Shown here one piece after another: positions 12,493-24,101 of a stretch of DNA of 24,101 nucleotides. Within the stretch, counting starts at the first letter, position 1, and every line of letters begins with the position of its first letter. Location of the stretch: positions 1-24,101 of IMG/VR virus record IMGVR_UViG_3300025314_000101. One strand, given 5' to 3'. This DNA is from a virus. The translations under genes were made by a program, and so were the position numbers. Under the pieces are notes generated by a model that had not been told where the DNA came from, did not search any database, and saw nothing but the letters and a program-made list of their open reading frames with translations.

Positions 12493-12627
12493 TTAGAAGA
12501 GAATTAATTGCTATCAGATTATTTTCGCGCTCTGCCGTTGAGCTACACACCGTTTCCAGTGTAATAGGAATCGAACCTACAACTACGTCTTTACAAGAGA
12601 AGTAACTGATAACTTCACTGCTTCTAA
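12493..12627 (-). ncRNA. Y RNA-like Y-C with permuted tRNA-like module
   Basis: The clearest copy. Outer stem TTAGAAG/CTTCTAA, inner stem TATCAG/CTGATA, internal loop 5' CAGTGAAGT and 3' ending AATTCT, then TTACTTC. The module in order: T arm GTAGG-TTCGATT-CCTAT (12564-12580); an acceptor-like 7-bp stem TACACTG/CGGTGTG closed by a GAAA tetraloop (12546-12563); D arm GCTC-AACGGCA-GAGC (12529-12543). This is a tRNA with its acceptor end sealed and its anticodon arm replaced by the conserved helix, as known for bacterial YrlA RNAs. Confidence 0.85.
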
Positions 12628-12754: not shown

Positions 12755-12896
12755 ACTAGAGAGAATTTAGGTCGAATATCGACATCAAAGCTCCTGCTCT
12801 AACGATGAGCTACACCCGTCAAGTGTGACGGGGCTAGGAGTTTAACCTAGTACACAGAGCGCCCTACGAAGTAACGATATTCTACACTACTCTAGT
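12755..12896 (-). ncRNA. Y RNA-like Y-B with permuted tRNA-like module
   Basis: Begins 28 bases after the end of the Ro60 gene. Outer stem ACTAGAG/CTCTAGT, inner stem AATATCG/CGATATT, internal loop 5' TAGTGTAG and 3' ending AATTCT, then TTACTTC. Module: T arm CTAGG-TTAAACT-CCTAG (12834-12850), acceptor-like stem CCCGTCA/TGACGGG closed by CACT (12815-12832), D arm GCTC-ATCGTTA-GAGC (12796-12810). Sequences of all helices differ from Y-C while pairing is kept. Confidence 0.85.
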
Positions 12897-12924: not shown

Positions 12925-14490
12925 CTAATACTTACGAATTTCCTTTTCCATTACATCGCCCTTCTCTACGAAGTTGATGTAATCCAAAATCTTATCTGAC
13001 CAACCATTAATTTGTGTAACATTCTTCTTTGTGCTCGGAGTTTGACTAGTACCATATGCTGACACATTCAAAGAATAAAGCCGAGCATTTGGATTGATTG
13101 CCGCTACATACTGTGTCCAAAGAATCTCAACAGAGCTATGCTTACCTAAATTCCAATAGGAAGAGTCATTTGTATTATAGCACTGCATATCTGAAATCAA
13201 AATAATTCGGTCAACTTTTATGCTATTTTTGATTAACTCTTCAAAAGCTAGCCAAGCGTTTGTTGAATGGCCAACATTTGTATTAACAATTTTCTGGATA
13301 TTACTAATCATCGTATCGTCTGGATTCAGACGGATGATTTTCGCACTTTCACCAAAACCAACTGTAATCGATTCTTCGGCCTTTTTTACCGAAAGCGCGC
13401 CAATTACAGCAGCAACTTCGGCATACGAAACTTCGCTCTTAGCACTTACTTGTGAGCCCGTCATTGACCCTGAAAGGTCAACAAATACGGCTGTAGAACC
13501 ACCAAGCTCAACATTCGTAATTGATTTCTCAAAAGCTTGGGCAATTGCTCGCTGAACCTTTTGATTATCACGAACATTCTTATAAGCACTATAGAACCGA
13601 AATGGTAGCTGCTTTGAACGCTTAATCTGCTCCTCGTCCGTTAAACGTTCAATTATAGCATCCAATTGAACATCTTTGTCGATAAAGTTTCTCAAATTAC
13701 GTAGTAACGCCATATAACCCATATTCGGCGCTACAAGCTCCCAAGTTTCCTTGGAAGAGCCAAACTTAGAAATCAGTGTTTCCCAAGTAACATTTGATGC
13801 CTTGATAAGCTCTTTTGCTTCACCGTCAATAGTTTCTTTGGCAAGTAGTTTCTTTAGCGCGCCAATCTTTGGTAGCGCATCAGCATCCACGATATCGTGT
13901 ACGAGATAATCGTACATAGCCTTAGAAACAGGATAATCCTTTTCACGATTAATCAAACGAAGAACATCACCAAGTTTAACCGCAGATTTATCTGAGTCAT
14001 ACTTGTTTAGCTGATATTCATCAAACTTATGAAAAGCGTCAGCCACACCCTTCTTCAATGAGTTAGGAATAGGCTTTCCATACTGAGCAAGCTGAAACGC
14101 TAAAACTTCTGATAATTCATCCGCACGCTTGATAATCTTTGGTGCATATTCACGAATAAAAGGCTTGCAAGCCGGGATACTCGCGCTTACAACTAAAATC
14201 ACTTGTGGAGTCGTGCGCAAATAAATCTCGTTGCGCGCATATGCCGCTAACTGCAAAGGAAACTTTGGGTCTATCTTTGCAACTTCAACTACATCATCGA
14301 TTGTATCTTGCGCCAACTTCTTGCCGCTTACATAGAACGTATCTTCGTTCCAAAATGCGCCAAGAACACGAGAAATAAGTCTCGCCTTTACTGGCAAAGT
14401 ATATGCTACTTCGCCCTCATAGTTTACCGTAGTTTCAGCGTCAATCTTTTCCAGACGTACGGCTGTTTTTGTCTTATTTAGTGTTGCCAT
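12925..14490 (-). CDS. rsr: Ro60-like TROVE/vWA protein (Rsr)
   Basis: 521 residues, the usual size of Ro60 and bacterial Rsr. Residues about 20-330 are the alpha-helical TROVE ring (FWNEDTFYVSGKKLAQ, LAAYARNEIYLRTTPQVILV, ASNVTWETLISKFGSSKETW, MGYMALLRNLRNF), and the rest a von Willebrand A domain with an intact MIDAS motif VFVDLSGSMTGS near residue 340 and ILISDMQCYN. Family knowledge: the ring holds single-stranded 3' ends of misfolded RNAs while Y RNA sits on its outer surface; in bacteria Rsr works with PNPase or other nucleases in RNA maturation and decay. Here it is flanked on the same strand by Y-A (34 bases upstream, in its leader) and Y-B (28 bases downstream). RBS GAGGTAAAAGGA precedes the ATG. 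Likely promoter at 14748-14777. Confidence 0.95.
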   Translation of the reverse strand: MATLNKTKTAVRLEKIDAETTVNYEGEVAYTLPVKARLISRVLGAFWNEDTFYVSGKKLAQDTIDDVVEVAKIDPKFPLQLAAYARNEIYLRTTPQVILVVSASIPACKPFIREYAPKIIKRADELSEVLAFQLAQYGKPIPNSLKKGVADAFHKFDEYQLNKYDSDKSAVKLGDVLRLINREKDYPVSKAMYDYLVHDIVDADALPKIGALKKLLAKETIDGEAKELIKASNVTWETLISKFGSSKETWELVAPNMGYMALLRNLRNFIDKDVQLDAIIERLTDEEQIKRSKQLPFRFYSAYKNVRDNQKVQRAIAQAFEKSITNVELGGSTAVFVDLSGSMTGSQVSAKSEVSYAEVAAVIGALSVKKAEESITVGFGESAKIIRLNPDDTMISNIQKIVNTNVGHSTNAWLAFEELIKNSIKVDRIILISDMQCYNTNDSSYWNLGKHSSVEILWTQYVAAINPNARLYSLNVSAYGTSQTPSTKKNVTQINGWSDKILDYINFVEKGDVMEKEIRKY

Positions 14491-16129: not shown

Positions 16130-16322
16130 TAGGACTATCCGGCCAATGGCGTACTTTCCACTCTTGAACAACTCGCTTATATCCGCATCGCTTACAAGTA
16201 ACATGCATATGTTCACCACGCGCTGAGCAAGTAAACCAATAACATGTTTTTGTGGCGGGCTGGAATTCTATTAGAGGGCTATCTGCCCCACATTTACAAC
16301 AAGAACCGAAATTCGTTTCCAC
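16116..16322 (-). CDS. Zinc-ribbon protein, 68 aa
   Basis: Starts at GTG 16322 with AAGGA six to seven bases upstream, 15 bases after the end of tRNA-Ser(GCT). Two metal-binding pairs are visible: CCKCG near residue 8 and CKRCG near residue 43, with an additional C/H (CYWFTCSARGEHMHV) between. Such small ribbons are frequent in phages and may bind RNA, DNA or RNA polymerase. It overlaps the SLOG start by 14 bases. Confidence 0.75.
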   Translation of the reverse strand: METNFGSCCKCGADSPLIEFQPATKTCYWFTCSARGEHMHVTCKRCGYKRVVQEWKVRHWPDSPNDSE

Positions 16323-16336
16323 AAGTTTTCCTTCTT

Positions 16337-16428
16337 TGGCGGATAGAGCGAGATTCGAACTCGCGGTAGACGAATAACGCTACAACGGTTTAGCAAACCG
16401 TCGCTTTAAGCCTCTCAGCCACCTATCC
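16337..16428 (-). tRNA. tRNA-Ser(GCT)
   Basis: Class II. Acceptor GGATAGG/TCTATCC, D arm with GCTGAGAGGC, anticodon stem ACGGT/ACCGT with loop TTGCTAA, long variable arm, T arm GCGAG-TTCGAAT-CTCGC, discriminator G, encoded CCA. Confidence 0.93.
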
Positions 16429-16437
16429 ATTATTTTA

Positions 16438-16491
16438 GGAGCCCAGCCGCCGAGAAACCGTATCCAGCCCACGACGGTTCTCTGGCGCTCC
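16438..16491 (-). ncRNA. Long hairpin at the 5' end of the tRNA-Ser transcript
   Basis: Minus strand GGAGC/GCTCC, then CGCC/GGCG, then GAGAACCGT paired with ACGGTTTCTC (one bulged base), closed by a 12-base loop CGTGGGCTGGAT. The promoter at 16500-16529 predicts +1 at about 16493, so the RNA starts with this hairpin. It could be a leader, a processing signal for the tRNA, or a small RNA by itself. Confidence 0.5.
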
Positions 16492-16499
16492 CACTATGC

Positions 16500-16529
16500 A
16501 CTATATCACACCCACAATAACAATGTCAA
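16500..16529 (-). promoter_or_regulatory. Sigma70-type promoter for the tRNA-Ser/zinc-ribbon unit
   Basis: TTGACA (16529-16524), 18-base spacer, TATAGT (16505-16500). It starts just after the stop of the 16532-16867 gene and would feed the 16428-14500 genes. Confidence 0.7.
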
Positions 16530-16531
16530 GT

Positions 16532-16867
16532 CTATTTTTCCTTAGTGTCCGGGTCATTTTTAAAAGCATTTAGAGCCTCAGAAAGTGGTATTTCACCCAT
16601 TGTTGTTAGATTTTGATAAGATTGCTCACCATAATGTTTTCCCTGCCTATCTGTATAAAGATAGACAATCGTTTTAATTCGTTGAACAAATACCTTGGCA
16701 TTTCCATCATTAATCTTCTTTATTTTTGGTTCGATAGTTTCAATTGCGGGAGCACTAATACCATTTTCAGGCAAATTCTCGGATGGCGGGAGGTTATCAA
16801 TTAAATTCTTCCATATATTAGGGTCTTTAGGAATGGTCAGATTAATCACCTTTTTTCCAGATATCAC
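16532..16867 (-). CDS. Hypothetical protein, 111 aa, after the polymerase gene
   Basis: Starts at GTG 16867 (or GTG 16849, six codons later), overlapping the end of the polymerase gene. The N-terminal half is Pro/Asn-rich (LIDNLPPSENLPENGI) and probably flexible, and the C-terminal half KVFVQRIKTIVYLYTDRQGK then LTTMGEIPLSEALNAF looks folded. No known motif. It may be an accessory protein of the polymerase because of the overlap, which is inference. It is the last gene of the replication operon. Confidence 0.65.
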   Translation of the reverse strand: MISGKKVINLTIPKDPNIWKNLIDNLPPSENLPENGISAPAIETIEPKIKKINDGNAKVFVQRIKTIVYLYTDRQGKHYGEQSYQNLTTMGEIPLSEALNAFKNDPDTKEK

Positions 16868-18629
16868 TTACGTATGCATCTACCTTTACCGGAACCTTTT
16901 TTAATACCTCACTTGCTGAGCGAAGCATTGATTCCACAACTACTTCCTTAACACTTGCCGCGTGACGCTTATGGGCTAGTACAACGATTTCATCGTGGAC
17001 TTGAATAATGATTTTTGCGCGATATGAATAATTTTCTAAATCATTGTATAAATTAATCATCGCTAACTTAGTAATATCGGCATTTGTCCCCTGAATAGGG
17101 GCATTAGCACCTTGTCGTTTGATAGATGCTATCTCTTGTAGATAATTCGGAGCATCGCCCGAAGTTGGGCGCTTAAAATACCTTTTGCGCCCAAGCATGG
17201 TAACAGAAAACTCATTTCTGTACGCTAACTCACCCGCTTGATGCAACCACTCAACAACATCTTTATAGGCTGCTCGATAACGATTCATGATATTTTGAAC
17301 CTGTCTAAATGTAAACTTCGTAGACCGGCCTTCCTTCATTGATTCTAGATTTAGCATATCCATAAGTTTACTAGGACCCATCCCATAGGCTAACCCAAAG
17401 TTAATCGTCTTAGCAATAAATCGTTGTTCCTTAGTGACATTTTCTATCTTTAATCCAAAGATAGCTCCGGCTGTCGCTGTGTGTAAATCCTCACCAGAAG
17501 TAAACGCTTCCATGAATCGAGCATCGTTACTAAGCTCAGCTAAGATACGCAGTTCGATTTGTGAATAATCAGCAACCACAATTGCGTAGTCTTTTAGTGA
17601 CACGCATTGACGAAATTCATCTGGCATCTGCTGTAGATTCGGTTTTTTACATGCAAATCTTCCTGTTGCTGTTCCTATCTGTTGCCAATCAGGATGAATT
17701 CGATTTGTAAAAGGATGAATCTCCCCTAGAAATGTTTCCCCATAAGAGGACATAATCTTTTGGAGTTTTCGATAGTGTAAAAGCTCTTTTGCGGCTGGAT
17801 GATTAATAATACCAATTTCGCGCTCATTTGTAGCATTTAAATGCACGCCAATCTTCCCGAACGCTTCTTTTAGTTGCTTAGGACTGTTAAGATTAATAGC
17901 ATCCCTAACAAACATGCCTAATTGTTCTGACACTGTTTCAGGAAATAACAATTCATTCATCTTTACTCTGGAAGTTTCATGCTCTATAGCATAACCTTCC
18001 ATTTTTGCACGCCATTTTGGAACATCAATAGGCACGCCTTCTATCTCCATAGCAGCAATAACTTGTGTAAGCTGGAACTCAATATCAGCTACTTGTTCCA
18101 TTCCCTCTTTGGCTAAAATCTCTTTTTGTGCCTTCCAAATCGGGAATAAAACAACAACATCGTTAGCAGCATAGGATAGCTGCTCGTCTGTAAAGGCTTC
18201 TAAGGGCCGAATTTCCGTAAATGACATTCTGATGCCTTTACCTAGCTCAACACCCGCGTACTTAGCTGCTAGAGCCTTCAGACCTGTGTTTGCATAGCCG
18301 GGAGAAATAAGTGCTTCAGCTATCATCGTATCAAAAACATTGTTAATTTTTGCGCCTAAATGATTAAGGGTAAATGCTTGCTCAAACTTAGCATTCTGGA
18401 TAAGTTTTAACCATTTACGGCTTTCAAAAAACGGAATAAGCGGATGTAAATCCACCGTTCCTACATTGATGACATATTGCTTATCACCAAATCCTATCTG
18501 GCACAACAGAATTCTAGAATCTAGTGGGTTAAGTCCACTAGTTTCTAAGTCGAGTGCGAAAGTATCGTATCTGCCAAAGTCGGCAAGAACGTCTGTAAGG
18601 TTCTTTTCGACATAGATGAAATCAACCAC
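16842..18629 (-). CDS. polA: Family A DNA polymerase with 3'-5' exonuclease
   Basis: 595 residues, without the N-terminal 5' nuclease of cellular Pol I. The exonuclease shows Exo I DLETSG, Exo II IQNAKFEQAF and Exo III YAANDVVVL. The polymerase shows motif A VVADYSQIELRILAEL, motif B RFIAKTINFGLAYGMG, and motif C IIQVHDEIVV, so both activities look intact. Position 762 equivalent in motif B is Phe as in most cellular and phage enzymes. Starts at GTG with GGAG eight bases upstream; overlaps the primase end by 85 bases, indicating coupled expression. Likely the phage replicative polymerase. Confidence 0.95.
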   Translation of the reverse strand: MVDFIYVEKNLTDVLADFGRYDTFALDLETSGLNPLDSRILLCQIGFGDKQYVINVGTVDLHPLIPFFESRKWLKLIQNAKFEQAFTLNHLGAKINNVFDTMIAEALISPGYANTGLKALAAKYAGVELGKGIRMSFTEIRPLEAFTDEQLSYAANDVVVLFPIWKAQKEILAKEGMEQVADIEFQLTQVIAAMEIEGVPIDVPKWRAKMEGYAIEHETSRVKMNELLFPETVSEQLGMFVRDAINLNSPKQLKEAFGKIGVHLNATNEREIGIINHPAAKELLHYRKLQKIMSSYGETFLGEIHPFTNRIHPDWQQIGTATGRFACKKPNLQQMPDEFRQCVSLKDYAIVVADYSQIELRILAELSNDARFMEAFTSGEDLHTATAGAIFGLKIENVTKEQRFIAKTINFGLAYGMGPSKLMDMLNLESMKEGRSTKFTFRQVQNIMNRYRAAYKDVVEWLHQAGELAYRNEFSVTMLGRKRYFKRPTSGDAPNYLQEIASIKRQGANAPIQGTNADITKLAMINLYNDLENYSYRAKIIIQVHDEIVVLAHKRHAASVKEVVVESMLRSASEVLKKVPVKVDAYVSDIWKKGD

Positions 18630-19597
18630 TCCGTTTGCTCCAATACTAATTTTTTAAACTTTTCCCACTGTACAACATTCATTTCTAACTCTCCAACATC
18701 TTTCACACCAAGACTTGTATAATCTAGAATAATAGAATCTTCTCCAAGAGAATGTTGTAATGAAATAGCCGCACTTTTACCGGGGGCATCATTATCGGGA
18801 ACGATAACAATCTTCTTTCCGCGTAATAAACTTCGATTTGACCGTGTAATATGAGTTCCTCCGACGACTGCTGCCGGATATCCGTTTTGCCGAAGTAACA
18901 GCCAATCAAATTGACCTTCCGCAATAAAAATGATAGGCGAATGCCTAACTTCCCAAAAACCAAAAATGGGTTTAGGCATCCTTGTTCCAAGATATTTTAG
19001 TTTATCATTCGTAACAGTTCTTCCCATCATAAAATCACATAACAAACTCCCTGAAATGAGATTCGGAATAGTTATTCGATGAGACATGGCCTCATAACCA
19101 TCTTTGCTTATCAAGCCTATTTCTTGACCTAACTTATATTCTTCTGCGTAATTTAAACGTAAAACTTTACCATCTGTATATCCAATCTTATACTTCATGG
19201 CTGTATCAGCAGTTATCCCCCGCCCAAATAAATATGTTAAAGGACCGGGACTTTTTAAAGCAAATTGATGATACTCCTCTGCACAACCATATAAAAATTT
19301 ATATGTTTGAGTAGAATTTTTAACCTTTATAACGGTATTTTTATCTGATTTAAGAAATCGAAAATCTTCCCCAACATATTCCCTCGCAGCTTCGTCAGAC
19401 ATGCCTTTAAAGTCAGTCAGAAATTTTACTGCATCTCCCCACTCATGGCAACCAAAACAAAAATACGTCCCACTCGGATAAACAGTAAAGGATGGGTCAC
19501 GGTCACCCCTATGAAAAGGACAATGCGCAACCCACCGTTCCTGACTGCTCTCGATTAGCTTGATATTATTCTCTTTTAGAATATCATAAAGATTCAC
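18545..19597 (-). CDS. DnaG-type DNA primase (CHC2 zinc finger and Toprim)
   Basis: 350 residues from GTG 19597 (GGTGGAGAAGC upstream). The zinc finger is AHCPFHRGDRDPSFTVYPSG then TYFCFGCHEWGD (CHC2 type, residues about 25-65). The Toprim domain contains IFIAEGQFDWLLLRQNG (catalytic Glu) and KIVIVPDNDAPGKSAA (D-x-D). No helicase domain is fused, so a separate helicase is expected elsewhere. The start overlaps the methyltransferase stop by 14 bases and the end overlaps the polymerase by 85 bases. It makes RNA primers for the polymerase encoded next to it. Confidence 0.93.
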   Translation of the reverse strand: MNLYDILKENNIKLIESSQERWVAHCPFHRGDRDPSFTVYPSGTYFCFGCHEWGDAVKFLTDFKGMSDEAAREYVGEDFRFLKSDKNTVIKVKNSTQTYKFLYGCAEEYHQFALKSPGPLTYLFGRGITADTAMKYKIGYTDGKVLRLNYAEEYKLGQEIGLISKDGYEAMSHRITIPNLISGSLLCDFMMGRTVTNDKLKYLGTRMPKPIFGFWEVRHSPIIFIAEGQFDWLLLRQNGYPAAVVGGTHITRSNRSLLRGKKIVIVPDNDAPGKSAAISLQHSLGEDSIILDYTSLGVKDVGELEMNVVQWEKFKKLVLEQTEWLISSMSKRTLQTFLPTLADTILSHST

Positions 19598-20153
19598 GCT
19601 TCTCCACCACTGCGCCGATATTTAATTGTGTGTAAGCCTTAACAGGATAAAATCCTTTTAAATTTAGTGTTGGAATTTCGTTGATATAACCAGCTAATAT
19701 CTTTTGGCTAAAGCCTGTCTTATGTTCTTGCCCCGGACCTATCTGCAATCCAAATATTTGGTCCATTTCCATGCCATTAGACGGATTTCTAAGCCACCCA
19801 CGAATCACAAATTCCAAATCCGGTACTAAAAGCAATAATGTTGCACCGGGCTTCATTACTCTTGCAAATTCTCGTAATGTTGGTGGAACATGATATTTTG
19901 TAACATGTTCTAAAGTCTGCCAACAAACAATACCATCCACAGATTCGTCAGGAAAGGGCATATCCCACATATAAGCTTTGACATTTACTTGGTCACTTTC
20001 TTCATAAGCATCAACGCCAATAAAGCGGTCATCAAGTTTTGAATCTGCTCCACAGCCAACATCTAATAAAAGCCCGCCCTTGCCCATCATCTCATAGACA
20101 AGATTAACCCACGGGGAATTTATTGGTTCATCACTTCCAACAAATATTCTCAT
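19584..20153 (-). CDS. SAM-dependent methyltransferase (type 11)
   Basis: 189 residues. LLLDVGCGADSKLDDRF is the SAM loop, VDAYEESDQ the acidic residue after beta-2, and DMPFPDESVDGIVCWQTLEHV the typical motif-II region; PGATLLLLVPDLEFV is strand 5. Four bases lie between the nrdJ stop and the ATG, and it overlaps the primase. The unexpected position inside the replication operon suggests nucleotide or DNA modification as one possibility, but sequence shows only the generic fold, so a sugar or small-molecule role is equally possible. Confidence 0.85.
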   Translation of the reverse strand: MRIFVGSDEPINSPWVNLVYEMMGKGGLLLDVGCGADSKLDDRFIGVDAYEESDQVNVKAYMWDMPFPDESVDGIVCWQTLEHVTKYHVPPTLREFARVMKPGATLLLLVPDLEFVIRGWLRNPSNGMEMDQIFGLQIGPGQEHKTGFSQKILAGYINEIPTLNLKGFYPVKAYTQLNIGAVVEKRESL

Positions 20154-20156
20154 ACA

Positions 20157-22019
20157 TTAACCAACATATACAAGACCCTGTTCAACAGGAAAGTTTTCAT
20201 TGATTGTTCTTACCTCACAAGAACCCCCCACACAATCAAACATGCTTTGTTCTTCTATAGTAGCAGCTACAGAGTCAGAATGTCCAGCCGATATAATTTT
20301 TTTAGCTTCCTCAATGGGAATAGCTTCCAATGGTTCTTCTCCTCTACTTCCGGCTCTATAAAAGGTAGCGCCTTTTAAGTATGGTAAATACTCAAGCCAT
20401 AAATCAGATAGATTGTCAAGAGAATAGTTTTCTGGAAGATTGATGGTTTTGCTGGTGGCATTATCGATATGATTCTGGCAAACTCTTTGCATCTCAAAAT
20501 GCTTGAATGGCGAAATATCGTATGCTCCTTCAAGCACGCCAATATCTTTTCCTTGTTCTTCTAGTTCACCCCAAAGAGGGTCAATTACTAACTCTTTATC
20601 CAATTGTCTAGACCCATCGGATGTTGGACGATAAAATCTTCTCCAATAAGCGGGCGCAAATAATGGCTCAATTCCAGTTGAAACATCTGAAACCATACCT
20701 GTAGTGCCTGTTGGAGCAATCGTTAGAATAGCACAATTTCTAATACCATTATCACGAATATCATCAATAATACGTTGTGACAAAGCTCTTTTAACAAATC
20801 CAGAATCTAAAAATTTTTCATCATATGCGGGAAATGGTCCCTTTTCCACTGCTAAGTCAACAGAAGCTTGATATGCTTCTTCTTTAATAAATTCCATGAT
20901 TTGGTCAATCATATCAAGAGCGAATGAAGAGCTATACGGAATTCCCATTTTTATCAACATTGAATGAAGTCCCATGATGCCAAGACCAATACGACGCACA
21001 TTGTTGCAATTATCGCGTATTTCTGGAAGAGGGTATTCATTAACAGAAAGAACATTATCGAGAAATCTTACAGCAGTGCAAATAGTTTTTCTAAGCTGCG
21101 TGGTATCAAGTTTACCATAAGCATCAACAAATCTTGGTAATACCAAAGCTCCTAAATCACAGCAACCATACTCTTCCAGCCAAATCTCTCCACAAGGATT
21201 TGTACTGATAAGTGGCTTATAATACCAAATATTGGATTCTCTATTAGCTAGGTCCCCATTTAGAACTCCCGGTTCACCAGATTGCCAAGCATTATAAACA
21301 ATCTTATCCCACACTTCTTTAGCATTTATTTTTTTACTTGGTTGATTGCCCCAAATTAAATCGAAATCCTCATTCTTTCGAATTTTGTTGATAAAAGTCT
21401 CAGTATTTACTTTTTTATCAATAATAACAGATACATTAGCATTCGTAAGCTGTTTTCGGTCTAATTTTTTATCTAAGAATTCCGGCATATCTGGATGAGA
21501 AATATTTAGGTCTAACATAAGAGCTAATCTTCGCCCGCCACCGGCAACAAGAACATCACCAACAGCATTTATCATTTCCATCAAAGAAACAGCGCCAGTA
21601 GCTATTCCGCCAGTTCCGTGGATTTTGGAGCCTCTAGGTCGGATTGGACTGACATTGACACCAACGCCACCGCCCATACCAGAAATAACAATAACGTCAT
21701 GTATTGTTTTACCCCAACCTTCTCTCGAATCTTGTGTATTAAGAACAAAACAATTCAAAAGCTGCGCTCTAGGTCTGCCACTTCCATACCAAATCCTTCC
21801 TCCGGGCATAAATCTATTAGTGACAATTTCCTCATAAAATTCTTCTTTGATACCTTCACGTATAGAATCATCTTCTGCGCCTGATACATGAGAAGCTAAT
21901 CGCATTGATGCCCCATCCCAAGTTTCTTCGGGGTAGATTGTATACCTTTCCTTAAATATTGTTTCAGATAATCCTGTTGGAGTATATTTTTCACTTTTTT
22001 TAACCCTTACTGGTGTCAA
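20157..22019 (-). CDS. nrdJ: Adenosylcobalamin-dependent (class II) ribonucleotide reductase
   Basis: 620 residues. Reduces ribonucleotides to deoxyribonucleotides. Visible marks: TNRFMPGGRIWYGSGRP and NCFVLNT near the N-terminus, GMGGGVGVNVSPIRPRGS, the conserved active-site STNPCGEIWL, and APTGTTGMVSDVSTGIEP. The C-terminal CVGGSCEVR pair is the usual reductant shuttle cysteines. It has no neighbouring NrdB-like gene and matches the length and layout of B12-dependent enzymes, so the host must supply or salvage B12. Starts at TTG 22019 with AAGGAG ten bases upstream, overlapping the HNH gene by 20 bases. Confidence 0.93.
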   Translation of the reverse strand: MTPVRVKKSEKYTPTGLSETIFKERYTIYPEETWDGASMRLASHVSGAEDDSIREGIKEEFYEEIVTNRFMPGGRIWYGSGRPRAQLLNCFVLNTQDSREGWGKTIHDVIVISGMGGGVGVNVSPIRPRGSKIHGTGGIATGAVSLMEMINAVGDVLVAGGGRRLALMLDLNISHPDMPEFLDKKLDRKQLTNANVSVIIDKKVNTETFINKIRKNEDFDLIWGNQPSKKINAKEVWDKIVYNAWQSGEPGVLNGDLANRESNIWYYKPLISTNPCGEIWLEEYGCCDLGALVLPRFVDAYGKLDTTQLRKTICTAVRFLDNVLSVNEYPLPEIRDNCNNVRRIGLGIMGLHSMLIKMGIPYSSSFALDMIDQIMEFIKEEAYQASVDLAVEKGPFPAYDEKFLDSGFVKRALSQRIIDDIRDNGIRNCAILTIAPTGTTGMVSDVSTGIEPLFAPAYWRRFYRPTSDGSRQLDKELVIDPLWGELEEQGKDIGVLEGAYDISPFKHFEMQRVCQNHIDNATSKTINLPENYSLDNLSDLWLEYLPYLKGATFYRAGSRGEEPLEAIPIEEAKKIISAGHSDSVAATIEEQSMFDCVGGSCEVRTINENFPVEQGLVYVG

Positions 22020-22476
22020 TGCTATCTTTCTCCTTCTTTAATTCTTGGATTTCTTCTAGAAAATTCCAGAAACGGTTACATTTGTAGATATCACCTTCAC
22101 TTTGGTATGAACATATGTAAGGTAGGTACACCTTATGTTTACGCGCTAAGGGCGCACGAATCTCTTTCCAACATGGTTTTTGAAATTTACAAGGAATAAA
22201 AGATTTTGTTGAAGTTTTTTGAAATCTATTCGTCGGACTCATCAAATTTTGTGTTCTATAGTCAGAATTAGACGAAATAATTACCAAGTTGCTGGGACTG
22301 TTATCCTGTGTGTTACCGTTAACGTGTCTTACATCTTCATCAGGAGTAAGAGGTCTACCTAGCAAATCTTCGGCAACTAAGATTTGTTCTGGAACATACC
22401 CATTTCCCACAGCCCTAGAATTTTGGGGACTGTGAACTAATGTATAATAATCGTAGATTTTTTTAGGTTTTGTCAT
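22000..22476 (-). CDS. HNH endonuclease-like protein
   Basis: 158 residues. The block YVPEQILVAEDLLGRPLTPD followed by EDVRHVNGNTQDNSPSNLVII matches the phage HNH_3 pattern (EHRLVAE ... GEVVHHINGD..DNRPENL), but the first His of the H-H pair is Arg (VRHVNG) and the earlier His is Gln (EQILVAE). The central H and the final N-P-x-N-L remain, so activity is uncertain. A Cys-rich C-terminal part (CKFQKPCWKE, YICSYQSEGDIYKC) may bind zinc. Homing-type HNH genes often sit beside nrd and polymerase genes in phages. First gene of the leftward replication operon. Confidence 0.85.
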   Translation of the reverse strand: MTKPKKIYDYYTLVHSPQNSRAVGNGYVPEQILVAEDLLGRPLTPDEDVRHVNGNTQDNSPSNLVIISSNSDYRTQNLMSPTNRFQKTSTKSFIPCKFQKPCWKEIRAPLARKHKVYLPYICSYQSEGDIYKCNRFWNFLEEIQELKKEKDSIDTSKG

Positions 22477-22499: not shown

Positions 22500-22529
22500 T
22501 TTATAGGGTATTGTTGGGCCTCCTGAGAA
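22500..22529 (-). promoter_or_regulatory. Putative promoter of the replication operon
   Basis: TTCTCA (22529-22524), 18-base spacer, TATAAA (22505-22500). The -35 is weak, but the spacer equals that of the other phage promoters, and +1 near 22493 is 17 bases before the HNH start. Confidence 0.4.
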
Positions 22530-22564
22530 GCTTAATTTTTAAGAAAATTTCTTTTTACTTTTCC

Positions 22565-22594
22565 TTGACATGGGGGGTCTAACATTGTTATAAT
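22565..22594 (+). promoter_or_regulatory. Strong sigma70 promoter, rightward
   Basis: Consensus TTGACA (22565-22570) and TATAAT (22589-22594), 18-base spacer, +1 near 22601. It lies back to back with the leftward operon promoter and drives the gene at 22691. Confidence 0.85.
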
Positions 22595-22638
22595 AGGTTT
22601 GCCGGGACAGCGGGGTGCACAGAAATACTATTATTACC

Positions 22639-22680
22639 TGAGCATATACTGTAGCATACTAAGCATACTGAGCAAATACG
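22639..22680 (+). repeat. Tandem AGCATACT-type repeats, possible operator
   Basis: Four copies of an AGCATACTG-like unit (AGCATATACTGT, AGCATACTA, AGCATACTG, AGCAAATAC) spaced 9-12 bases apart, between the promoter and the start of the 22691 gene. The position about 40-80 bases after +1 suggests a repressor or regulator binding site, or a leader element. Confidence 0.4.
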
Positions 22681-22690
22681 GAGTTATTAA

Positions 22691-22921
22691 ATGTTAGACT
22701 ATAATTATCGAAGTAGATGTTGTTTAGCTCCTATCAGATTAGGAAATAAAACTAAAAAAGGTATTCGCATCAAAGTTTGGGTATGTGTTCGTTGCAAGAA
22801 GGCTGATATAGACATTATATCAAAAGAGGAGGCTCAACTTCAAGGAAAAAATAGGCCGATAGAGGGTAATTTTTCCCACAATATTAAGGAACCTTCACTT
22901 GACAGCCCCGACTACGGGTAG
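22691..22921 (+). CDS. Small zinc-binding-like protein, 76 aa
   Basis: ATG 22691 has GGAG seven bases upstream. The N-terminal half is a zinc-ribbon pattern: RCCLAPIRLGNKTKKG followed by VWVCVRCKKAD (C-C then C-x2-C). The rest is polar and basic, ending SLDSPDYG. First gene of the rightward transcript from a consensus promoter, so it is probably made early and strongly. It could bind nucleic acid or host RNA polymerase; this is inference. Confidence 0.7.
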   Translation: MLDYNYRSRCCLAPIRLGNKTKKGIRIKVWVCVRCKKADIDIISKEEAQLQGKNRPIEGNFSHNIKEPSLDSPDYG

Positions 22922-22931
22922 GATACTCGCG

Positions 22932-23071
22932 TAGCCAAGTAAGGCGACTGCTCAATTCAGTCAAATTCGACGGAATTTGGAAGAATCGAACACAATCGCT
23001 TTGCTTGGCTAATTTAATAGCGGTTGGAAAATTCTCTCGATTAAAACGAGGTCGGGGAGTTTTTTACCGCT
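22932..23071 (+). ncRNA. Structured RNA between zinc-binding gene and transglycosylase
   Basis: A 16-bp stem pairs 22932-22947 with 22996-23011 (including G-T pairs); it encloses a short CTG/CAG hairpin and a perfect CAAATTC/GAATTTG hairpin with a GACG tetraloop (22962-22979). A second hairpin closes with AGCGGT/ACCGCT (23019-23071). Part of the same transcript as the 22691 gene, so it may be a 3' UTR RNA or an attenuator upstream of the 23130 gene. The 5' portion resembles a class II tRNA by eye but has no acceptor stem. Confidence 0.55.
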
Positions 23072-23078
23072 TAGAAAG

Positions 23079-23129
23079 AGCGAGTGGATAACCTGTACTG
23101 AGATACAGAATTTACTCGCTTTTTCTTTT
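23079..23129 (+). terminator. Terminator or attenuator just upstream of the transglycosylase
   Basis: Stem AGCGAGT/ACTCGCT with an inner CTGTA/TACAG hairpin, followed by TTTTCTTTT. The ATG of the next gene lies at the end of the U-tract, so it can only be read if this terminator is bypassed. Confidence 0.7.
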
Positions 23130-23696
23130 ATGGAGGTATTTGTTATTAAGTACTTACGTTTGCTCCCTATTTTTATAGTGGTTTTTTTACTAATAACTTT
23201 TGAACCAGTAGTATTTAGTGAATCCAAGCCAATCCAACACAAAAATCCACAAATTAGAATATATGAAAAGCCATATTTACCAATTCCATATCAAACTTTC
23301 GATGCTACTGAATTTATTCCATATTCGATAGAATTACCTGAAATTAGTCCAAAACCAACCAAAACGCCTATAATTACCATAATTGATGAAAGAGTTTTTT
23401 CACCTTCAATAATAGAAGTTCGTGAGTATGCTTTTCTTAAAATTGGTAGTTATCAATTTAGGTGTTTAGATAGACTTTGGACACGAGAAAGTAGATGGCG
23501 TACAACTGCACACAATAAGTATTCGGGCGCTTATGGTATCCCCCAAGCATTACCAGCCGATAAGATGGCATCTGCTGGAGATGATTGGCTTACTAATCCT
23601 ATGACTCAGGTAATATGGGGATTAAAATATATCAAAGGTCGGTATGGAACAGCTTGTAATGCTTGGCAACACTCTTTAAATGTAGGATGGTATTAA
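23130..23696 (+). CDS. Membrane-anchored SLT lytic transglycosylase
   Basis: 188 residues. The N-terminus IKYLRLLPIFIVVFLLITF is a signal anchor, then a Pro-rich linker (PKPTKTPIITI), and the SLT-like domain lies in about 115-188: LWTRESRWRTTAHN with the catalytic Glu in RES, YSGAYGIPQALPADKMASAG and the C-terminal WGLKYIKGRYGTACNAW. This matches actinobacterial transglycosylases that cut peptidoglycan glycan strands. Start is uncertain: the ATG has no SD, while GGAGG falls inside codons 2-4 and stands eight bases before an ATT at codon 6, which would begin IKYLRLL. Lysis or cell-wall entry role. Confidence 0.85.
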   Translation: MEVFVIKYLRLLPIFIVVFLLITFEPVVFSESKPIQHKNPQIRIYEKPYLPIPYQTFDATEFIPYSIELPEISPKPTKTPIITIIDERVFSPSIIEVREYAFLKIGSYQFRCLDRLWTRESRWRTTAHNKYSGAYGIPQALPADKMASAGDDWLTNPMTQVIWGLKYIKGRYGTACNAWQHSLNVGWY

Positions 23697-23723
23697 TTTA
23701 GAGGAAAATATTTCTAAAACGGC

Positions 23724-23753
23724 TTGACCTTATAGCTATCACTATGATATAGT
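23724..23753 (+). promoter_or_regulatory. Sigma70-type promoter, rightward
   Basis: TTGACC (23724-23729), 18-base spacer, TATAGT (23748-23753), +1 near 23760. Its transcript begins with the hairpin at 23761-23806. Confidence 0.7.
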
Positions 23754-23759
23754 ATAGAT

Positions 23760-24016
23760 GTCACCAGCGGATAGCCCTCAAGCAGTCCGAATGCTGGCTC
23801 TGGTGATAAGTGAGCAACGTTTATTGGTTTTATAGCTCCATGTAAAAAACAAACCATCGTGTCTCCTTCGCGTTTAAGGAGCGATGCTTATCGGGAAATG
23901 CTATCGTTAGGATTGTCTCCCCGTCTATGTCATGTGACGTTAAACATTGATGGAGTCGATTTCAGCCGGGAGCAAAGTACAAGCTCCCGGCCTAAATTCT
24001 TTGTAAAGGAGAAAAA
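23760..24016 (+). ncRNA. Long structured leader or small RNA ahead of the 24017 gene
   Basis: 257 bases without a gene. Hairpins: TCACCAG/CTGGTGA with inner CGGA/TCCG (23761-23806); CATCG/CGATG plus CTCCTT/AAGGAG (23855-23886); CCGGGAGC/GCTCCCGG with a 9-base loop (23966-23990). No U-tract follows the last, so it does not look like a terminator. It may regulate the following gene, for example as a riboswitch-like or antisense-regulated leader; I do not recognise a known class. Confidence 0.5.
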
Positions 24017-24101
24017 GTGGATATCTTGCAAATTATTCTTGATGCAGCTATTTTTCTTGCTTTGGTTGGTGTCGTAGGTGCTGTTATCACGACCCAAAGC
24101 G
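24017..24101 (+). CDS. Start of a membrane protein gene (incomplete)
   Basis: Starts GTG 24017 with AAAGGAG five bases upstream and runs open to the window end. The 28 visible residues begin MDILQIILDAAIFLALVG and continue VVGAVITT, so the N-terminus is a hydrophobic, likely membrane-spanning segment. It could be a holin-type protein near the transglycosylase, but too little is visible to name it. Confidence 0.65.
   Translation, partial: MDILQIILDAAIFLALVGVVGAVITTQS

Follow-up and report, generated by a model that had tools for sequence, protein, structure and literature searches.

A predicted three-hairpin RNA with a terminator between a promoter and the transglycosylase gene of a Stanwilliamsviridae-like phage

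Overview

The window analysed here, a stretch of 24,101 nt that forms positions 1 to 24,101 of the IMG/VR virus record IMGVR_UViG_3300025314_000101, contains a predicted three-hairpin RNA that ends in an intrinsic terminator and lies between a promoter and a transglycosylase-like gene (Table 1). Comparison with related phages suggests that RNA and terminator were added downstream of a pre-existing promoter in the lineage to which this phage belongs, and the loss of the RNA in all other relatives would be the less simple alternative. With moderate confidence, we regard the element as a lineage-specific small phage RNA that, lying in the transglycosylase leader, would also attenuate this gene passively. 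In its make-up the RNA belongs to kinds that are already known, namely phage small RNAs and 5′ terminators.

Table 1. Features of the small ORF–transglycosylase region of the window
Feature	Position	Strand	Description or basis
Upstream promoter of small ORF	22565–22594	+	TTGACA-18-TATAAT, TG before −10, 12/12 consensus
Small ORF	22691–22921	+	76 aa; cysteine pairs CC and CVRC; ORF list, relatives
Promoter adjoining the RNA	22899–22927	+	TTGACA-17-GATACT, 10/12 consensus
Hairpin 1	22932–23011	+	16-bp perfect base stem (22932–22947/22996–23011), interrupted inner arm
Hairpin 2	23019–23071	+	22 bp as 6+11+5; terminator-like, internal U6 (GGGGAGUUUUUU)
Hairpin 3, predicted intrinsic terminator	23073–23129	+	17-bp outer and 5-bp inner stem; ΔG −25.6 kcal/mol
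Shine–Dalgarno GGAGG of transglycosylase	23132–23136	+	Sequence
Transglycosylase-like gene	23145–23696	+	Hydrophobic N-terminus, phrog_12661, likely AUU start

Structure of the RNA

The extent originally predicted for the structured RNA, 22932–23129, holds: the + strand folds here into three abutting hairpins, the last of which is paired over 23073–23126. The fold of 22926–23131 (+) has a minimum free energy (MFE) of −88.2 kcal/mol, compared with a mean of −46.4 (SD 4.2) for dinucleotide shuffles, which corresponds to a z score of −9.94, with none of 200 shuffles as low. Both strands of the 24.1 kb were also scanned in 200-nt windows placed every 100 nt, with 20 shuffles for each of the 480 windows. 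The minimum, a z score of −7.7, was found at 22901–23100 (+), and the second and third ranks (−7.4 and −6.8) fell on the − strand at the position of the RNA itself, because the DNA is palindromic. When G–U pairs and spans of up to 95 nt were allowed, only five uninterrupted helices of at least 13 bp were counted in the 24.1 kb, three of them in the RNA stretch (17 bp, 23073/23126; 16 bp, 22932/23011; 13 bp, 23025/23066). Among 2000 dinucleotide shuffles of that stretch, 2 contained a helix of at least 17 bp and 12 contained three helices of at least 11 bp, overlaps counted. The + strand is the likelier RNA strand, since 12 of the 76 pairs in the fold are G–U and the − strand of 22932–23129 is predicted to fold to just −67.3 kcal/mol, compared with −88.2 for the + strand.

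The perfect base stem described in the original prediction was recovered, whereas the two inner hairpins placed upon it were not, the MFE structure showing a single interrupted arm; a GACTG/CAGTC hairpin would be in competition with the end of the 16-bp stem. The second long hairpin is present, and the terminator expected ahead of the transglycosylase gene appears to be real, in the form of the third hairpin, whose outer stem leads into the U-tract TTTTTCTTTT (23120–23129). A mechanical terminator scan of the 2.1-kb region returned 2 sites versus 1.4 expected, which is no more than chance; it flagged hairpin 2 and missed hairpin 3 through its loop rule. The predicted stability of hairpin 3 exceeds the mean ΔG values of a published terminator survey (5′ terminators, −16.5; 3′ terminators, −20.2; PMC2965389), a comparison that is rough owing to the different protocol.

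Without the terminator stem, the best alternative fold is less stable by 22.7 kcal/mol, and in prefix folds the hairpins form one after another without rearrangement, so that antitermination by a switching fold finds no footing. Riboswitch, T-box and switching attenuator identities were rejected as well, as there were neither mutually exclusive terminator and antiterminator folds nor matches to aptamer or leader families.

Elsewhere in the window, another strong intrinsic terminator is located at 1493–1531 (−), ~25 nt before the ATG (1467) of a 489-aa ORF, leaving no room for a promoter between them; this is the second place in the phage at which a terminator precedes an ORF.

Promoters and ends of the RNA

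The −10 element of the promoter adjoining the RNA ends at 22927, 4 nt before the base of stem 1 (22932), and transcription is predicted to start at ~22934, ~7 nt past the −10 element and at the stem base, while the 3′ end is predicted at ~23127, at the terminator. Promoter, RNA and terminator would thereby form a complete unit of ~195 nt, and, as judged by sequence, the RNA has two features of a discrete small RNA gene, an upstream promoter of its own and a 3′ intrinsic terminator. A transcript from the upstream promoter of the small ORF would also extend into the RNA. Consensus matches are common, with 8 promoter-like sites in the 2.1-kb region versus 6.2 expected; promoter and terminator scan matches alone mean little, and the support for the promoter comes from the relatives.

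Inside the RNA no sigma-70-type site of at least 9/12 starts, the best being 8/12 (at 22967 and 23005), and the 15 nt from the U-tract to the likely start codon are too short for such a promoter. A separate promoter after the terminator was looked for, and no sigma-70-type one was found. The proposal that the enzyme is expressed by readthrough gains from this layout, in which RNA and terminator separate both good promoters from the gene: since no sigma-70-type promoter was found in the RNA or after the terminator, the transglycosylase gene seems to depend on readthrough, unless another type of promoter is used. The sites were scored against a sigma-70-type consensus that may not be that of the host, and a putative phage sigma factor is present in Coruscant; for both reasons the RNA could contain a promoter of another type.

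Past the transglycosylase gene, the next promoter match (TTGACC-18-TATAGT) lies at 23724–23753 (+). It is followed, within 23724–24019 (+), by a moderately structured stretch of ~260 nt (z −2.74, with 1 of 200 shuffles as low), beyond which an SPFH/Band 7 protein (L004 6010–6918) starts with GTG at 24017.

Comparison with related phages

The window groups with Stanwilliamsviridae-like phages, and its nearest annotated records are Streptomyces phages, in which the gene order is ribonucleotide reductase, glycosyltransferase, at least one small ORF and transglycosylase. The homologous small ORF is also kept in the IMG/VR contigs L009, L226 and L229/L015 (114–120 kb), and it adjoins the transglycosylase gene in L009, L015 and L226, for which its homology was established. 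These contigs and seven Streptomyces phages, hand-picked from the 115 records with the gene (Coruscant, Wofford, Paradiddles, Riptide, Bmoc, PumpkinSpice and EGole), made up the 10 relatives compared.

In all 10, a predicted promoter (9 or 10 of 12 consensus positions) is found at the equivalent site, and the distance from the end of its −10 element to the start codon is 29–50 nt, compared with 217 nt in the window; the gap between small ORF and transglycosylase measures 54–98 nt in the relatives, compared with 223 nt in the window. Three of the 10 gaps also contain a second site of 8/12, and a small hairpin precedes the Shine–Dalgarno sequence in Wofford, PumpkinSpice and Coruscant. Inspection of the 10 gaps by eye revealed no terminator with a U-tract. 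It is because the relatives have the promoter without the RNA that the RNA is considered an addition.

Records left out of the promoter comparison were Wakanda and BillNye, which have no ORF annotated between glycosyltransferase and transglycosylase, Ankus, whose record is unannotated, and L225 and L227, which have no motif-bearing transglycosylase adjoining the small ORF. L005, L006 and L010 are not syntenic with the window, and L007 and L008 were left out as well. L144 shares a contig with L226, and L152 shares one with L015.

Between the 12/12 promoter and the small ORF of the window, short repeats centred on GCATACT occupy 22630–22690 (+); their counterparts are GAGCATACTCAGAG in L009 and TATATACTGAG and GTATACTCAG in L015.

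Search for homologues

The RNA was found in the window and in three contigs that are 99.6–99.97% identical to it, with no differences in the 261 bp around the RNA. No Rfam family covered the RNA at the gathering score, and cmscan of 22500–24101 at E up to 10 gave two weak matches, both outside the RNA. Among 50,697 records of phages and 72,556 of plasmids, BLASTN of 22899–23131 yielded only matches of 19–30 nt (E 8–9), and in a BLAST search of the RNA region against 127 loci, alignments longer than 39 nt were confined to copies of the window's phage. A 14-mer of stem 1 occurred in 114 stretches of viral contigs, a 23-mer of hairpin 2 in three, all from the window's phage, and two RNA patterns had no match in genome contigs. 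In a DNA search of four related records, one 20-nt match (E 0.004) was obtained beyond the window's phage, covering 22884–22903, upstream of the RNA.

Because the two copies behind the covariance model R1 are identical, it amounts to a single-sequence model and is weak, so that distant relatives could escape it; among 18 sources, 13 records and 79 loci it matched only the window's phage, and it had no match in three further records. There are at least 80 related loci, and those besides the window's phage entered through this model search alone. A minus-strand match of 36 bits at the RNA itself is explained by the palindromic stem 1. Neither BLASTN nor the pattern and covariance-model searches thus returned a diverged homologue, and among the titles listed by the literature searches, none concerned this RNA. 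As no Rfam family covers the RNA, a regulatory RNA of an undescribed kind is possible.

The transglycosylase gene and its start codon

The transglycosylase ORF is open, and 31 columns, including E115, are invariant in an alignment of 11 sequences. The product matches phrog_12661 with an E value of 1.2e-41 and Pfam SLT with an E value of 0.0027, which falls short of the cut-off of that family, while a PDB profile search gave one chance match (E 0.59). The N-terminus was judged hydrophobic by eye, and a putative signal peptide and lipobox (LAGC in L009) were likewise assigned by eye.

An ATG does abut the U-tract, at 23130 (+), as originally noted; as the start of the gene it is improbable because it overlaps the Shine–Dalgarno sequence. 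The likely start is AUU at 23145, with AUG 23130 fitting less well: the ATT lies 8 nt past GGAGG and aligns, at the hydrophobic N-terminus, with the start codons of L009 and L015, both TTG, which are preceded by GAGGAGGAG, and it is this spacing and alignment that make it preferable. AUU start codons are rare, and the relatives start with TTG, ATG or GTG. In the predicted readthrough mRNA, GGAGG would be mostly paired with the sequence just 3′ of it (unpaired probability 0–0.13).

The suggestion that readthrough times lysis did not find support, as Coruscant has an endolysin and a holin annotated elsewhere. In the annotations as deposited (the record was covered at 16242–22417 and 24000–123999), its endolysin is at 23689–24690, its holin at 52670–52897 and its transglycosylase at 19243–19860 on the other strand, opposite to the strand of the structural genes. 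Against this argument, the gene is named 'endolysin' in 16 of 60 listed phage records (115 records have the gene), and others call it transglycosylase, glycosyltransferase or hydrolase. A role in lysis timing is unsupported rather than excluded.

Possible functions

In the favoured reading, the transglycosylase leader would contain a small RNA gene. RNA polymerase would start from the adjoining promoter and make the three-hairpin RNA, and most polymerases would stop at the terminator. The released RNA should be stable and accumulate because both of its ends would be buried in helices, while a minority of polymerases would read through into transglycosylase mRNA, so that the insertion would also attenuate the gene passively, with little enzyme made compared with the RNA. 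What we infer is where transcription starts and stops, that the RNA is stable, that readthrough is partial, and whatever the RNA might do once released. With 77% of the bases predicted to be paired and no unpaired run longer than 7 nt, a protein partner of the RNA is more likely than antisense pairing. As the gene is open and keeps the 31 invariant columns, readthrough must either suffice or be regulated, a point that the passive reading fails to explain.

A comparable arrangement is Rli51 of Listeria, in the mpl 5′-UTR, reported as both an attenuator and a small RNA: according to that report, a short RNA is ended by a premature terminator and released, and the enzyme gene beyond is reached via readthrough (PMC11394854). 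Rli51 differs in being a 121-nt RNA of the Listeria chromosome with a predicted antiterminator and a reported role in trans (PMC11394854), whereas the predicted phage RNA has no antiterminator fold; no sequence relation is claimed. The small non-coding RNAs of the mycobacteriophages L5 and D29 and their relatives come from different phages and loci, and the abundant L5 left-promoter RNA is without an evident canonical terminator, unlike the RNA of the window.

Doubtful, in our view, is a regulated cis attenuator, with no separate role for the RNA, whose terminator would be opened at a certain time by a factor of phage or host origin, such as an antitermination protein or a ligand, to allow synthesis of the transglycosylase. 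A promoter, a structured leader and a terminator before an open gene that lacks its own sigma-70-type promoter would fit such a device, and terminator-bearing leaders are the usual form of attenuators according to PMC2965389. It is opposed, however, by the missing antiterminator fold (the 22.7 kcal/mol gap and the hairpin-wise folding of prefixes), by a hairpin 3 stronger than the mean 5′ terminator published there (PMC2965389) and by the absence of a comparable leader in the 10 relatives.

It is likewise unlikely that the stretch is an unselected terminator or hairpin block, or a leader for insulation or RNase III-type processing that only parts the small-ORF transcript from the transglycosylase. 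The RNA resembles the 5′ terminators and 'mobile attenuators' of Naville and Gautheret (2010), described in their paper as derived from insertion sequences or prophages and recurring before unrelated genes, a new terminator before a gene becoming a 5′ regulatory element (PMC2965389). This record of mobile terminators turned attenuators, the confinement of the RNA to one lineage and the terminator at 1493–1531 (−) would agree with an unselected block. Unlike mobile attenuators, however, the RNA was found at one place only and has two extra hairpins, and three long stems, the + strand bias from G–U pairs and a predicted start at the stem base exceed what a terminator needs; the promoter also lies directly in front of the RNA.

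Rather improbable is a trans-acting, protein-binding RNA of an undescribed family that captured the promoter from which the transglycosylase gene was ancestrally expressed, with the host RNA polymerase or the Ro60/TROVE protein as its partner. Least probable is a put-like mechanism. RNAs of the HK022 put type, located at or close to the 5′ end, cause antitermination through the β′ zinc-binding domain; in the window's phage the initial hairpins would likewise attach to the elongating polymerase, which would then disregard the terminator. In favour of this, the hairpins would open the transcript ahead of a terminator, as in HK022 putL just downstream of PL, which has two stem-loops and is paired from nt 3 (PMC9378689). 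Against it, the stem make-up and length differ (a 16-bp perfect stem 1 in a three-stem RNA of ~195 nt, compared with two indented stems in a putRNA of ~70 nt; PMC9378689), only a single gene precedes the next promoter match, and no Rfam match was obtained.

The Ro60/TROVE locus

The window also encodes a Ro60/TROVE protein at 12925–14490 (−; Pfam TROVE, 2.6e-33). A YrlA-like Y RNA match is found just downstream at 12508–12612 (−; 33 bits, E 5.7e-5), below the 69-bit cut-off of the family, and a weaker one at 12773–12880 (20 bits). The protein is present in six of six window-like records, and 2 of 10 Streptomyces phages gave weak matches to it; the gene of Coruscant is annotated as 'Ro-like RNA binding protein'. 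In G005 (30.9 bits), G002 (27) and G007 (16.6), a YrlA-like match follows Ro60/TROVE at a distance of up to 1 kb. Against a pairing of Ro60 with YrlA, Paradiddles (34.8) and EGole (32.9) are among the best scores without a match to the Ro60 query, and YrlA-like matches at E up to 1 occur in 13 of 14 control genomes, so that tRNA cross-matches have to be considered. A Y RNA or YrlA identity of the three-hairpin RNA itself was rejected, as no such Rfam match was obtained in 22500–24101 at E up to 10.

Conclusions

The relatives appear to represent the state before, and the phage of the window the state after, the insertion of a small RNA unit that parted a gene from its conserved promoter. If the RNA does not accumulate, it would be another strong leader terminator by which the output of the gene is merely lowered. 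If it does accumulate, it would show how a phage can acquire an attenuator together with a non-coding RNA in a single event.
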